This document shows, piece by piece, positions 44,421 to 54,636 of a DNA stretch of 64,000 bases (the stretch's first letter is position 1; every line of letters starts with the position of its first letter). A program made the position numbers and the translations under genes. The stretch covers positions 310,001-374,000 of the forward strand of contig CM074765.1 of assembly GCA_037355855.1 (NCBI GenBank), in the 5' to 3' direction. The notes beneath the pieces are model-generated. The model did not search any database. It saw nothing but the letters and a program-made list of their open reading frames with translations, and was not told the origin of the DNA. Origin of the DNA: Pseudo-nitzschia pungens (lineage: Eukaryota > Bacillariophyta > Bacillariophyceae > Bacillariales > Bacillariaceae).

Positions 44421-46379
44421 TCACTCCCACTCCGTGTCCAGAATGGCCGCCACCCGCTCGATCTTGATGTTGTAGAGGGGATGGGTCGCCCCCACGATGG
44501 TTTGCACCGGATCCCCGAATCCCTCGTCTGGGCCGCCACAGGCATCGCCAGCGCCATCGTCAGTTCCATTGTCGTTTCCGGCTGGCTCGTTGGCATTTTG
44601 TCGGCTGTAGTGCTGGGCAATCGACAATCCGCTGAGGTTGTAGCACGTGTGGTAAAAGTCCCGCGGCTTGCTGGGTTTGTCTCGCAGGCCCCCCGTGATT
44701 TCCTGCGCGCAGAGAAGAATGTACCGCTCCAGCAAAAAGACATCGTACAAGAGCGGAAAGGGAAGGTCGGGTGTTGGCGATTCTGTTTCCGCTGCGGATG
44801 CGGATGCCCTGTACCGCGCCAACCAGGGATCCTCGTCGTCGTCATCGCCATCGCCATCGTCGTATTCCCCACCGTTGCGGAGGTCGCTTCCGTCGAGGAA
44901 GCCGCAGGCGCTGCTGGCAATCGCTGTGGCTCCCCCCTGCCAAAAGGAATAACACCCGTCGACCAGCTTGTTGGAGCGTCCCGAAAAGCCTCCCTCGTAG
45001 GTGTTTTGCCGGCGGGACAGCCATCCGAGGAGGGCTTTCACGTCCAGGGCGTGCTCGCTTGCACCATCGTCGCCGTCATTGTTATTGTCATTGCCATTGC
45101 CACGAGAGGGCCAGTGGTCGTGCAGCGCTCCCAGCAGCTTGAGCGCGGCCACGGCGCACAGCGTGTAGCCCCCGTGGGCCTCGGCAAAGGGCTCCCCGCC
45201 GATGCCCCCCTCGTAGGTCTGGCAGGCCCGGACGAAATCCACTACTTTTGGCCTTCCCAGGACCGTGTGCCGCCGCACGCGATTGCCATTGCCATCGCTG
45301 TTGCTTCCCTTTTTTGGTTGGGTCAGAATGCCCAGCAGCTTGGAGCAGCAGGCAATCGTGTAGGTGGCCCGGACGTCGACCTCCCCGTCGTGCTGCATCC
45401 GGTATCCCCCCGTGTCTGGAACCTGCAGCGATGTCATCCAGCGATAGAGGGGGATCCGGATCTCGCGGAGCATCCGCTTGGCGCGCTGCGAGTAGTGGAG
45501 ATTGCTGTACGAGGAATCGTCGCAATCGTTGTCGTTATCGTCGTTATTGTAATTTTCGCTGTTCGTCTTCGAGGCGGCCGACAAAGGACCGGTGGGAGGT
45601 TGCAGCGGGTCGTGCTGCTGTTTGGGATTCTCTGCTTGGTCGCTCTCGTCGTCGTCATCCGCCCCGTCATCCTTCTCTTCGGGGCACGTCGCCAGGATGC
45701 ACAGGGCCAACACGGCCGCGTACGTCGTGGCGGCGTGGGCCATTTGTCCCGGTCCGCCCCCGAATCCACCGCAGTAGTAACGGGGTTCCTCCCCGTCCCG
45801 GACCTCGTCGTCCTCGTGCGGCCGAAAGTACAGCTCGTCGCAGTCGTTGTCGCAATCTTGTTTCGGAACAATTCCCGGCACCTTGGATTTGAGAGTGTGA
45901 TAGCCCTGCCAGCAATCCTCCAGCGTCGACACCATGCTGGCCCCGTCCTGGGGGGTGATCCACCTTCGAGCCCTGGTTTTGTTGCTGCCACTATCACTGC
46001 TGCCGCCGCCGCTCTCGGTAGGTTCGTCCGACAGCAGGTCGTATCCGTGGAGGCACCAGTAGAGCATCCAGGGCCGGCTCGAATCCAGGCTCACAAAACC
46101 AGCCTTGAGGGGCTTGCGCCAGACTCCCTCCAGGTAGGCCCGGTGCTGGGGACGGAGGAGCCGGATCCAGTGGGAGGGCTTTTCGGTCTCTTCCGGAGGG
46201 ATGTTTTGCTTGAGCAAACCGACGCGGTGGAGCTGCTCCTTCTGATGCGCCGGGAGCGTCGACAGGTCCACAAAGAACGGCTGGCATTCCTTTTCGGTCT
46301 TTTTCTGGAGGATGGTCGATTCCGTGTCCACCAGGCAAAAGAGAGGGGGCTTGTTGCTGTTGCTGCTGCTGTTGCTCAT
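44421..46379 (-). CDS. FNTB: Protein farnesyltransferase beta subunit
   Basis: 652 residues, intronless, from the ATG at 46379. Alpha-alpha toroid repeats of prenyltransferase beta subunits are clear: SSRPWMLYWCLHGYDLL, YCGGFGGGPGQMAHAATTYAA, VDVRATYTIACC, YEGGIGGEPFAEAHGGYT, YEGGFSGRSNKLVDGCYSFWQGG and DFYHTCYNLSGLSIAQHYS. The zinc ligands are all present: Asp and Cys of DGCYSFW (about 473 and 475) and His of DFYHTCY (about 577). RDKPSKPRDFYH and HPLYNI place it with farnesyl- rather than geranylgeranyltransferases. With an alpha subunit it attaches farnesyl to CaaX-box proteins in the cytosol. It is about 200 residues longer than animal homologues because of Asn/Asp/Gly-rich inserts between the helices (near 240-285, 350-365, 430-445 and 490-515). 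Confidence 0.93.
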   Translation of the reverse strand: MSNSSSNSNKPPLFCLVDTESTILQKKTEKECQPFFVDLSTLPAHQKEQLHRVGLLKQNIPPEETEKPSHWIRLLRPQHRAYLEGVWRKPLKAGFVSLDSSRPWMLYWCLHGYDLLSDEPTESGGGSSDSGSNKTRARRWITPQDGASMVSTLEDCWQGYHTLKSKVPGIVPKQDCDNDCDELYFRPHEDDEVRDGEEPRYYCGGFGGGPGQMAHAATTYAAVLALCILATCPEEKDDGADDDDESDQAENPKQQHDPLQPPTGPLSAASKTNSENYNNDDNDNDCDDSSYSNLHYSQRAKRMLREIRIPLYRWMTSLQVPDTGGYRMQHDGEVDVRATYTIACCSKLLGILTQPKKGSNSDGNGNRVRRHTVLGRPKVVDFVRACQTYEGGIGGEPFAEAHGGYTLCAVAALKLLGALHDHWPSRGNGNDNNNDGDDGASEHALDVKALLGWLSRRQNTYEGGFSGRSNKLVDGCYSFWQGGATAIASSACGFLDGSDLRNGGEYDDGDGDDDDEDPWLARYRASASAAETESPTPDLPFPLLYDVFLLERYILLCAQEITGGLRDKPSKPRDFYHTCYNLSGLSIAQHYSRQNANEPAGNDNGTDDGAGDACGGPDEGFGDPVQTIVGATHPLYNIKIERVAAILDTEWE

Positions 46380-49420: not shown

Positions 49421-49951
49421 GATTGGGTCGCGGACGGTCGCAAAAAGAGAGGACCGCGGTCGGAATCGCTGCTAGGGTCTCGGGGAGAGGACAAAAAGGG
49501 CTGTCGAACGGCGGGACGCGGAGAAGAGAAGGTCCAACGATTCATTCGCAATTCACAACTCAACGACGTCTTTTTCATTTTCTATCAAACAGCGTATTTT
49601 TATTTTCTATCAGTACTAGTCGTTTATGATAGGATAGTAGTAACTTTGTCCTATTCATTTCACGTACTTGGTGTAATCGATGTTATTCAACATTTAACTA
49701 AAGGTTGTTCTGAATGCATTTATTCTTTTTTTCATCCTGTTTCCGTACCGAAGAATTTGTTTGATGCGTGGGCAGAATGAATTTCTATAGAACAGAGTTC
49801 ATTCGATTCTTGTGTTTCGACGACTGTCGGAATGAATCGATACCTTGCCCTTCCATATATATCACACAACAGCGCATACCGCAGGATAAATAAATTATAA
49901 TGGCAAGCACTGTTGGTGGCAATCTTATCCGAGACCGATCCAACCACGTGC

Positions 49952-50028
49952 ACGCGCTCCGGTCGGCGTTCGAGAATCCCTCCTTCTTGCGAACGATCGA
50001 GACTCTGTCATTCCCGAGCAGAGCGCGC
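49952..50028 (-). promoter_or_regulatory. Candidate SECIS element in the selenoprotein 3' UTR
   Basis: Read leftward, about 190 nt after the stop codon. An 8-pair helix (50028-50021 with 49959-49952) leads to a 4-pair TCGG/CCGA helix, then ATGA (50011-50008) opposite CGAA (49972-49969), giving the tandem G-A/A-G pairs of a SECIS core. An 8-pair helix II (50006-49999 with 49980-49973) and an 18-nt apical loop containing AAGAA follow. The apical AA is about 19 nt from ATGA, farther than the usual 11-13, so this is a candidate only. A second, weaker candidate (TGAT..CGAT core, CTGTTG/CGACAG stem) lies near 49820-49870. Confidence 0.35.
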
Positions 50029-50221
50029 CTTGGCACGGCCTCGCCTGTGGCAGTCACTGTGGACTTTTCACGTAGTGGTATAAAAATAATATCAATAGAA
50101 TACTGTTATCACCACGAAGCACGAAGCACGACGCAATAGTATGTATCTATTGACTCCCCGTGTAACGCGCTCACTCGTTTGCAACTTGCAACGAGCTTCC
50201 CGATTCAACGGATTGGATTGG

Positions 50222-51094
50222 CTAACCGAGGGCTGCGAGGATCTTGGAGTTGATCTCATCCATGTCCAACGCCTTGAGCGCTGGAAAAGGACGCTCCATC
50301 CCCTCGAGAGAGACAATGGGTTCTTCGACACCTTGGACGGACACCACAAAGTTGCCTTTCCCGGGCTGCATACGAAAGAAGATGGTTTCGTTTTGTATGC
50401 GTGTGTTGGATTGATTGATTCATTGATTGATTGTGTGTTGGATTTTGCGTTGTTTCCGGCACAATCCGGACAACAATGACGACAACAAAAACAAGATTCG
50501 TGAGACCTTGCAAGAATTGATTGGGAGATACAGTTACCCCCATTGTCACGACTCCAAAAATGACACTTTTTGACGTCTCTATTCACAACAATTGAAAAGC
50601 CTTGTCACAAACAAACAAACAAACAAACAAACAAACTCTCTCTCTCACACACACACACAAATCCTTGTTTTGTATTGTTTGACACGCACCTTTTCTTTGT
50701 TGACTTGCACAAGAGCTCGATCCCCGACGGCCTTGACAATCTTGTTGGCTCGAGTCTTGAATGCGCCTCACGACTTGCAGGCCTCCACTGCCACGATCTT
50801 CTTGTCGGGAGAGGGCTCACCGACGGCGGGTTGTTCTTCGGCAGCCGGAGCGGCCTTCGTCTTCTTCTTGGCTGCGGCGGCGCCCGTGGTCTTTTTGGCC
50901 TTGGTGGCACCGGCCTTCTTCGGGGCCGGCTTCTTCTTGGGAGCGTCCTTTTTCTTGGTGGGCTCTTTCTTCTTGACGGGCTCTTTCTTCTTGGGACCCG
51001 GCTTGGCCTTGGTCTCTTTGTCTTCCGCGGCAACGGGCTCTTTCTTGGGCTCCGGCTTGGGCTTGGTGGCGACGCGGGTGGATCTTCGGGGCAT
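50222..51094 (-). CDS. SELENOH: Selenoprotein H (Rdx family) with in-frame TGA as selenocysteine, two exons
   Basis: Starts at the ATG at 51094 with MPRRSTRVATKPKP, an AT-hook/histone-H1-like Lys-Pro-Ala tail of about 95 residues. The redox domain then begins: KIVAVEACKS, followed by TGA at 50770-50768. Read through, the frame continues GAFKTRANKIVKAVGDRALV QVNKEK to a GTGCGT donor at 50689. A ..CGTATGCAG acceptor ends at 50366, and exon 2 (50365-50222, phase 0) gives PGKGNFVVSVQG, EEPIVSLEGMERPFPALKAL and a final helix to TAG, 182 residues in all. The TGA is codon 109, in a Cys-x-x-Sec motif (Cys106) at the end of the first beta strand, exactly as in SELENOH and other thioredoxin-like Rdx proteins. 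Animal SELENOH is a nuclear, DNA-associated redox protein; the basic tail suggests the same here. Treating the TGA as a stop would delete most of the domain. Confidence 0.86.
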
Positions 51095-52584: not shown

Positions 52585-52588
52585 ATGC

Positions 52589-52622
<34 letters not shown>

Positions 52623-53445
52623 TGTCGTCACCACTCCGTACGTTAAGGACGACGATGATCGTGCCGTCGATGCTCCGGAACACCGCTCGTGCGGATCCTA
52701 TCTCCAACAATGGTGGAACGAAAGCCTCTGGCCGGGAATGGGATTGTTCGGGGAATCCTACCTGCTGTTCAGCATCGGGACGCTGACACCGATCTGGAAG
52801 GAACTCTATCCAACGTGTTTTGGTGGCGCCAGTGGCAACGGACAGGACAATGATAATGACAATGGCGATAATGATGACATCGATGCCAATGCCAACATCA
52901 GCATCAACGACGACGCCTGCTCCCCGTGGCTCCTCCCCTCGCTCACGTACGGCGTCGTCCTGGGAGTCATTGCCGGGATGATCCTCCTGGGCTACGGATC
53001 GGACCGCATCGGGAGGCGAAAGGGATCCATTCTGACGGCCTCGCTCATGGTAGCCGGGAGCCTGGGGCTGGTGTGGGTGGCGATGCAATCCGCGTCCGAA
53101 ACCTGGACCGCCGAGGGGGTCTTTCGGGGGACGGTCGCGGCCCTGGTGGTCTTTGGGATCGGCGTGGGCGGGGAATACCCGCTCAGCGCCGGTCTGGCGT
53201 CCGAGAAGGCCACCGAGGAACCGGCCCGCAATCAGCGCGTTCCGCGAGCCCGGGCCGAACGACAACGCGGAAAAGGGGGCGGGGATCCTCCGGTGCCGGA
53301 GCCCGCCGTCGATCGTCACCGCGGCCGTCGGGTGCAACTCGTCTTTGCGATGCAGGGATTGGGGATATGGTTCAACAGCCTCGTCATGCTCGTTTTGTTT
53401 TGGATTCTGCGGGGACGAGCGGACGGCAACAATAACAATAACAAT

Positions 53446-53492
<47 letters not shown>

Positions 53493-54636
53493 GCAGTACG
53501 ACTATCTATACCAGGCCCACGATCTGGTCACCATCTGGAGGATAACCTACGCCATTGGTGCCTCCGTGTTGTGCTTTGTGCTGATTACACGGATTCTGTA
53601 TCTGGAGGAATCCAAGGTTTGGTTGGAGGCCCACCGGAACCACGCCCAAACCGATGATCCTTCTGCTATTTCGAGCGTTCCAAACAGCACCAAACAACGA
53701 GCACGCAATGCCGACACTTCCCCGGCGGTGCCGGCGGTGGACGCCAAAACCCGGTTTCGGCTGGTCCACCAGCAATACGGATCCCGCCTGTTCGGAGCGG
53801 GAACCGCCTGGCTCTTGTGGGACGTTTCCTTTTACGGCAACAAGCTCTTTCAGTCCACCTTTCTGGAAGTCCTGGTGGGAGACAATCCCGGCCCGGTCCG
53901 GCTCACCCAGGCGGCACTCATCAACGCCACCGTCGCCCTGGCCGGATACTACGGTGCCGCGGCGCTCATCGACGCGACCCTCCCGGCAGCAACCGGCGAA
54001 TCGTCGACCCGCCTTCTGGGGAGGACCCGGCTCCAGACGCTGGGATTCCTGGCCAACGGGGTCCTCTTTGTCGCCTGCGGTGCTTTGGTCGCCTCCGGAT
54101 CCTCCAACGCCTCGGCGACCATTGCCCTGTACTGGCTATCCTCCTTTGTCGGACAGCTCGGTCCCAACTGCACCACCTTTTTGATCCCGGCCGAAATCGT
54201 TCCGACCGACCAGCGGACCTACGGACACGGGGTGTGCGCGGCCGCCGGCAAGGTTGGGGCCCTGGTCGCGGCGGTGGTCTTTCACAAGATCGCCCCGGAC
54301 GACAACGACAACGACCACAAGGAGCGCCTCTTTTACCTGTCGGGGGCCTGCAGCCTGCTGGCGGCGGCGGTGACGCACGGATTCGTTCCGGAATCGTCCG
54401 GACTGGACCTGCTGGAGCTGGACCTCCAGTGGAAACTGCTGCTGCTGCTGCAAAACGAGCAACAAGAAGGAGACGGAACCGAACCCGTGCGCAAATACGA
54501 CGGACCGGCGAGCCGCCCCGATCACACGAGTCTCTTCGAGCGCTACTGTCAGCGACGAACCGAGAGGAAGAAACTCAAAACAGAAACCGATGCTTCGGGC
54601 GGTCCGAGGCATCTCCTTGACGGCTGGCTCGCCTAG
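52585..54636 (+). CDS. MFS transporter, PHO84-like phosphate:H+ symporter family, possible compensating frame breaks
   Basis: I start at the ATG at 52585, which opens a poly-Thr run; the frame upstream lacks a good start. The protein is 683 residues with about twelve hydrophobic segments. Family marks are GLFGESYLLFSIGTLTPIW in helix 1, the MFS loop motif GYGSDRIGRRKG between helices 2 and 3, GVGGEYPLSAGLASEKATEE, QLVFAMQGLGIWFNS, TAWLLWDVSFYGNKLFQST and PAEIVPTDQRTYGHG. These fit the phosphate:proton symporter branch, so import of phosphate or another anion at the plasma membrane is likely. Between 53227 and 53319 the annotated frame loses codon bias while the +1 frame is almost entirely G/C at third positions. 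One extra C at 53225-53227 and one missing C near 53319 would explain this. A long Asn/Asp insert lies near 53425-53490. Confidence 0.82.

Follow-up and report, generated by a model that had tools for sequence, protein, structure and literature searches.

A selenoprotein H gene with an in-frame UGA and a candidate SECIS element in the diatom Pseudo-nitzschia pungens

Results

In a 64,000-nucleotide stretch of the Pseudo-nitzschia pungens genome (the window; C8:310001-374000 of a 66.9-Mb assembly in 28 contigs), we identified a gene for selenoprotein H (SELENOH, SelH). With a probability of roughly 0.93, its in-frame UGA is read as selenocysteine (Sec) through a SECIS element in the 3' UTR, yielding a redox protein that has a C-x-x-Sec motif and a basic tail. 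This reading draws on the gene anatomy, the homology to other proteins, the fold of a relative, a SECIS-type structure and the Sec machinery encoded in the genome. The gene is a real and expected selenoprotein H gene of an already described type; the one unusual point of the locus is a SECIS without the apical AA or CC.

Gene anatomy

Positions 50,222 to 51,094 of the window correspond exactly to the gene from ATG to stop (Table 1). Following read-through and splicing, the frame comprises 182 residues with a single in-frame TGA, which stands in exon 1 in the context EACKS-TGA-GAFKTRANKIVKAVGDRALVQVNKEK; exon 2 reads PGKGNFVVSVQG...ILAALG and is followed by TAG. A sequence-only reading of this DNA had proposed a Cys-Lys-Ser-TGA motif, a GT donor and a phase-0 second exon, and the anatomy was found as described; a standard reading indeed halts at the TGA and would give a Lys-rich peptide of 108 residues. 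The proposed intron and exon junction was supported by the relatives examined, where the splice join was crossed without a break (NKEKPGKGNF), and by relative P0061, an apparent genomic read that seems to retain the intron at the same point (VNKEK...PGKGNF). Since the spliced read-through domain matches 67 relatives and the join is continuous in the sequences examined, the frame is more than a product of chance. Searching the protein against the genome revealed its own two exons as the only matches and, thus, a single gene.

Also located in the window are a prenyltransferase alpha-alpha toroid protein with Asp/Asn-rich inserts (44421-46379, minus strand; PF00432, E 1.4e-81) and an MFS/sugar-transporter-like protein with a long Asn-Asp repeat (52585-54636, plus strand; PF00083, E 9.4e-20).

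Table 1. Features of the SELENOH locus (window coordinates), relatives in which Cys replaces Sec, and tRNA-Sec genes (contig coordinates).
Feature	Position or identifier	Strand	Remarks
Exon 1	51094-50690	-	ATG start; residues 1-98, Lys-rich tail; redox domain, first strand and helix
In-frame TGA, codon 109	50770-50768	-	Presumed selenocysteine codon; C-K-S-Sec motif
Intron, phase 0, 324 nt	50689-50366	-	GTGCGT...TATGCAG
Exon 2	50365-50222	-	Remainder of the redox domain; TAG stop at 50224-50222
Candidate SECIS	50029-49950	-	3' UTR; based on fold, grammar and controls
Cys-at-Sec-position relatives	P0015, P0016, P0017, P0025, P0032		ASKEC; partner Cys is Ser
tRNA-Sec genes	C10:2371879-2372342; C1:9139224-9139309; C5:2407242-2407327		Anticodon TCA

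Relatives and the residue at the TGA column

A protein database search with residues 97-182 at a threshold of E ≤ 0.001 revealed 67 relatives of 44-82% identity (best E 9.6e-37). Where the printed name gives an organism, it is in every case a diatom (e.g. Skeletonema, Fistulifera, Seminavis, Nitzschia and Cyclotella), many entries naming none; in UniRef, two of the relatives are named Selenoprotein H. The DNA of the relatives was looked for among genome contigs and viral contigs, where no match was obtained.

At the TGA column, Trp is present in 47 of the 67 relatives, every time as C-x-x-W. To judge from these protein sequences, it would most simply be a TGA read by a table-4 gene caller. Replacement of the TGA by Cys in related diatoms had been suggested as a check on the Sec codon, and five of the 67 were found to have Cys, Ser replacing the first Cys of the motif in each of them; these five and the 47 with Trp, the presumed TGA, support the assignment. 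Garbled residues (five Glu, one Asp) occupy the column in six transcript-derived rows, and nine relatives have no alignable site (six gaps; P0063, P0064 and P0066). In the relatives carrying Cys for Sec, the C-x-x-U pair seems to be reduced to a single thiol upon Sec loss.

Two pairs of entries bear on the codon behind these residues. P0041, which derives from a transcript, matches P0024 apart from five residues at the Sec site and one further residue; the Skeletonema gene model P0067 corresponds to P0049 less exactly the 26 residues around the Trp. Both pairs point to a stop codon at the Sec site in the relatives. A second search, using a profile of 12 sequences, returned 515 proteins; among the best 120 of these 515, transcript-derived P0100 carries Ser in place of Sec (CKSS). 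In the public diatom models P0067, P0068 and P0114, the active site is absent.

The N-terminal tail

The tail of the window protein has 98 residues, 33% of which are Lys or Arg. Its fusion to the redox domain had been regarded as unusual, a view that did not hold, as such tails are ordinary in the family: in 71 of the 141 relatives listed, those measurable by a motif filter, the median length was 58 residues (range 10-208) and the median Lys plus Arg content 26%, and five of these 71 tails were as long as that of the window protein or longer. The window tail is long, yet inside the family range. The association with chromatin proposed by the sequence-only reading is something we only infer.

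Identity as selenoprotein H

A profile of 12 family sequences, with Cys at the Sec column, was aligned by hhalign with the presumed sequence of human SELENOH at a probability of 95.4 over 81 columns, end to end and with the Sec columns matched. This collinearity and the 67 relatives support the identity as selenoprotein H that had been proposed. Model TIGR02174 (SelT/SelW/SelH) matched the window domain, with Cys placed at the TGA, at 18.8 bits (E 0.0015), below its curated cut-off of 34.2 bits; with E ≤ 0.1 as the limit, it also matched 27 of the 45 relatives searched, the best of them at 3.8e-5. Pfam PF10262 (Rdx) matched neither the window protein at E ≤ 1 nor any of 45 relatives at E ≤ 0.1. 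Other weak Pfam and NCBIfam matches, including RsgA_N and PolC, were below cut-off and were set aside.

The thioredoxin-like (Rdx) fold of SELENOH was found as well, in a relative of the window protein. The six best VIA rows of relative P0005 are SelW-type structures (2fa8, 3dex, 2obk, 2oka, 2p0g and 2ojl), of which 2obk, 2oka, 2ojl and 3dex are in part presumed to be of this type, the titles saying so for some only. A sequence search of the PDB gave 3dex as the sole plausible relative (E 0.063).

Sec machinery and other selenoprotein genes

The genome contains six identical tRNA-Sec genes (Table 1). Four form a tandem array with a period of 126 bp, in which all but one of the four repeat units are identical. 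SepSecS, an eEFSec-specific domain and SEPHS2 (LKGUACK, with TGA at the Sec position) are present. Eight genes other than that of SELENOH have TGA at the Sec position, namely SelT, two GPx, two SelM, SEPHS2, SelU and a second SelU.

For the GPx gene at C2:6318916-6319375, which has TGA at the Sec position, the AATGAC grammar described below gave no SECIS up to 1 kb from the presumed stop. At C7:869573-870211, a 379-residue open frame encodes two Rdx domains in tandem and has no TGA; CPGC is present in the first domain, and the second Cys is missing from the second.

Structure and detection of the SECIS candidate

The sequence-only reading had named the interval 49800-50221 (minus strand) for a SECIS, and a SECIS-type hairpin was found there, 193-272 nt past the stop of the gene. 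Its helix I has 14 pairs, and the core AATGAC (50012-50007) faces CGAA (49972-49969); above the 8 pairs of helix II, the apex consists of an unpaired GA, a short ministem and a GCAA loop. Folding gave a minimum free energy of -39.2 kcal/mol (z -3.08), and one of 200 shuffles was as stable. The 3' UTR contains a candidate with the core and both helices, its apical motif being atypical.

Scans demanding an apical AA or CC revealed no acceptable SECIS 3' of the SelH stop, so that this requirement was dropped. Poor helices or a GA distant from the helix led us to discard, by eye, the candidates at 3' offsets 357, 559/564 and 677. Rfam SECIS_1 had no match across the window, the locus or the genome, which carries little weight because the elements after GPx1, SelT, SelM2, SEPHS2 and SelU were missed too.

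SECIS grammars and controls

With a broader grammar built on an RTGA core, the SelH hairpin scored 23 and ranked second among the 60 candidates found when both window strands were scanned, and it was the sole candidate in the 2 kb downstream of the gene; none of 300 shuffles of 600 nt reached its score. The highest score in the window was that of a stable hairpin near 658 (minus strand; score 28), which was taken for chance as a SECIS, its core being GTGAC and no known Sec gene being located there. In other loci, two matches scored at least 20, both on the sense strand after selenoprotein genes; the register of the SEPHS2 match differs from that of the SECIS finally assigned.

The core AATGAC is common to the SECIS candidates of SelH, GPx1, SelM1, SelM2, SelT, SEPHS2, SelU and SelU2. 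A grammar demanding AATGAC, a flush helix II of at least 7 pairs, NGAN and a helix I of at least 5 pairs gave scores of 29 for SelU, 28 each for SelH, GPx1 and SEPHS2, 27 for SelU2, 24 for SelM2, 23 for SelM1 and 19 for SelT; for GPx2, it found no SECIS match in 1 kb. The SelT 3' region contains two AATGAC sites, and the SelM1 candidate has a weak fold and an assumed stop (TGA after FGTTAGK).

On both strands of the window, this grammar gave six matches, SelH at 28 and five at 14-20. Across 19 loci, overlapping ones excluded (123,508 bases, both strands), six matches reached at least 23, all in sense orientation and downstream of selenoprotein genes. Twenty sampled 10-kb regions (400,000 bases, both strands) contained 12 matches with a top score of 22, and among 2000 shuffles of the SelH 1-kb 3' region, 76 had any match and none reached 28. 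These controls are to be read as specificity estimates and not as clean p-values, because the grammar was written after the hairpin had been seen and SelH is among the sequences that defined the core.

The apical pair

In the SECIS candidates of GPx1, SelM2, SelT and SelU, an AA begins 8-12 nt after the TGA, and that of SelM1 has CC at 10 nt. Three of the eight candidates (SelH, SEPHS2 and SelU2) have neither AA nor CC 8-13 nt after the TGA. Of the canonical eukaryotic pattern, SelH thus has NTGA and GA and lacks the apical AA or CC. The SEPHS2 candidate (near 2619 of its locus) and that of SelU2 (near 2106) have the AATGAC core, a helix II of 9-10 bp and no AA or CC.

The search pattern in the part of PMC2375036 at hand is NTGA, an unpaired AA or CC 10-13 nt on, and GA. 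PMC3316567 describes AA for nearly all vertebrate SECIS and CC for SelM and SelO of mammals, and states that what exactly these two bases do is not known; PMC2874816 gives CC for a Ciona DsbA. In the literature searched, which was seen in extracts and excluded the supplements of PMC7539508 with their SECIS figures, we met no account of a diatom SECIS that lacks both AA and CC.

Discussion

Splicing would produce an mRNA with the in-frame UGA in the motif Cys-Lys-Ser-UGA and the SECIS hairpin past the true stop, and this hairpin would direct tRNA-Sec to the UGA. In eukaryotes, SECIS elements act via SBP2 and eEFSec. The predicted product has 182 residues: a thioredoxin fold bearing a C-x-x-Sec active site, preceded by a disordered Lys-rich tail. 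It is most likely a thiol/selenol oxidoreductase and probably nuclear, and the basic tail would keep it near nucleic acid. PMC13088273 reports that, in liver extract, SELENOH occurs together with PPAR-alpha on a DNA probe, and refers to its nucleolar location.

The standard reading of the frame ends at the TGA, as it would if this codon were an ordinary stop, the 108-residue peptide the product and the downstream redox domain a relic. However, the frame stays open for the 26 codons from the TGA to the donor and also through exon 2, and it is 44-82% identical to relatives; GC at its third positions is 0.80 upstream and still 0.65 downstream of the TGA, compared with a GC of 0.39 for the intron as a whole, and Sec is decoded elsewhere in the genome. 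An ordinary stop is, in our view, very improbable. We give just as little credence to a transcript from which the TGA segment is spliced out, encoding a shorter protein without the active site as in public diatom gene models: P0067 and P0114 lack exactly that part, but both are gene models, whereas transcript-derived P0041, P0028 and others keep the segment, garbled at the site, and in the window the segment sits within one open exon.

A third explanation accepts the selenoprotein gene and takes the hairpin at 50029-49950 for a chance structure, the true SECIS lying elsewhere, e.g. beyond an intron in the 3' UTR. The apical GA instead of AA or CC, the silence of Rfam, the post hoc grammar with SelH among the sequences in which its core was noticed, and the higher rank of the hairpin near 658 in the broader grammar are consistent with it. 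Nevertheless, the AATGAC score equals those of GPx1 and SEPHS2, exceeds everything else in the window (≤20) and in the 400 kb sampled (≤22) and was not reached in any shuffle of the 3' region, and the broader grammar has no other match in the 2 kb downstream; we consider a chance hairpin unlikely. Decoding of the UGA as Sec through the hairpin downstream of the gene is the reading we prefer.

Whether a SECIS of this diatom can do without an apical AA or CC is a more tentative matter; SelH (with GA), SEPHS2 and SelU2, each with an AAUGAC/GA core and long helices, suggest that it might, and we regard this as possible, with the balance somewhat against it. If so, the lineage would decode UGA via a relaxed SECIS missed by AA/CC-based searches, and its selenoproteome would be undercounted. 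The candidates without AA or CC could show at little cost what a SECIS requires beyond the GA/GA core.

According to PMC7539508, SELENOH is among the most widespread algal selenoproteins; because it is thereby already described in algae, the present locus is a further case of a known gene type. In the portion of PMC2375036 consulted, SelH is reported for Ostreococcus, but no SelH is listed for T. pseudonana, a diatom. Diatom SELENOH resembles a truncated, unknown protein in several public models because P0067, P0068 and P0114 are without the active site, a picture that is corrected by the whole gene and its likely SECIS.

Comparison with known systems

SelW/Rdx-type structures, including mouse SelW (2npb), share 12-18% identity in the rows of P0005; these structures have no basic tail, unlike the window protein, which Pfam Rdx does not match. 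The hairpin resembles the eukaryotic SECIS form II, the form with an apical minihelix, in its RTGA/NGAN core between two helices, its extra ministem and its position in the 3' UTR; it differs in the apical pair, which is GA at 9 nt after the TGA where AA or CC at 10-13 nt is usual. Compared with human SELENOH, the identity is about 26% (presumed human sequence), and the N-terminal tail of the window protein is longer and without a GRP/RGR AT-hook-like core. In both proteins, C-x-x-Sec closes the first strand, the domain is collinear over 81 columns and the N-terminus is rich in Lys and Arg.
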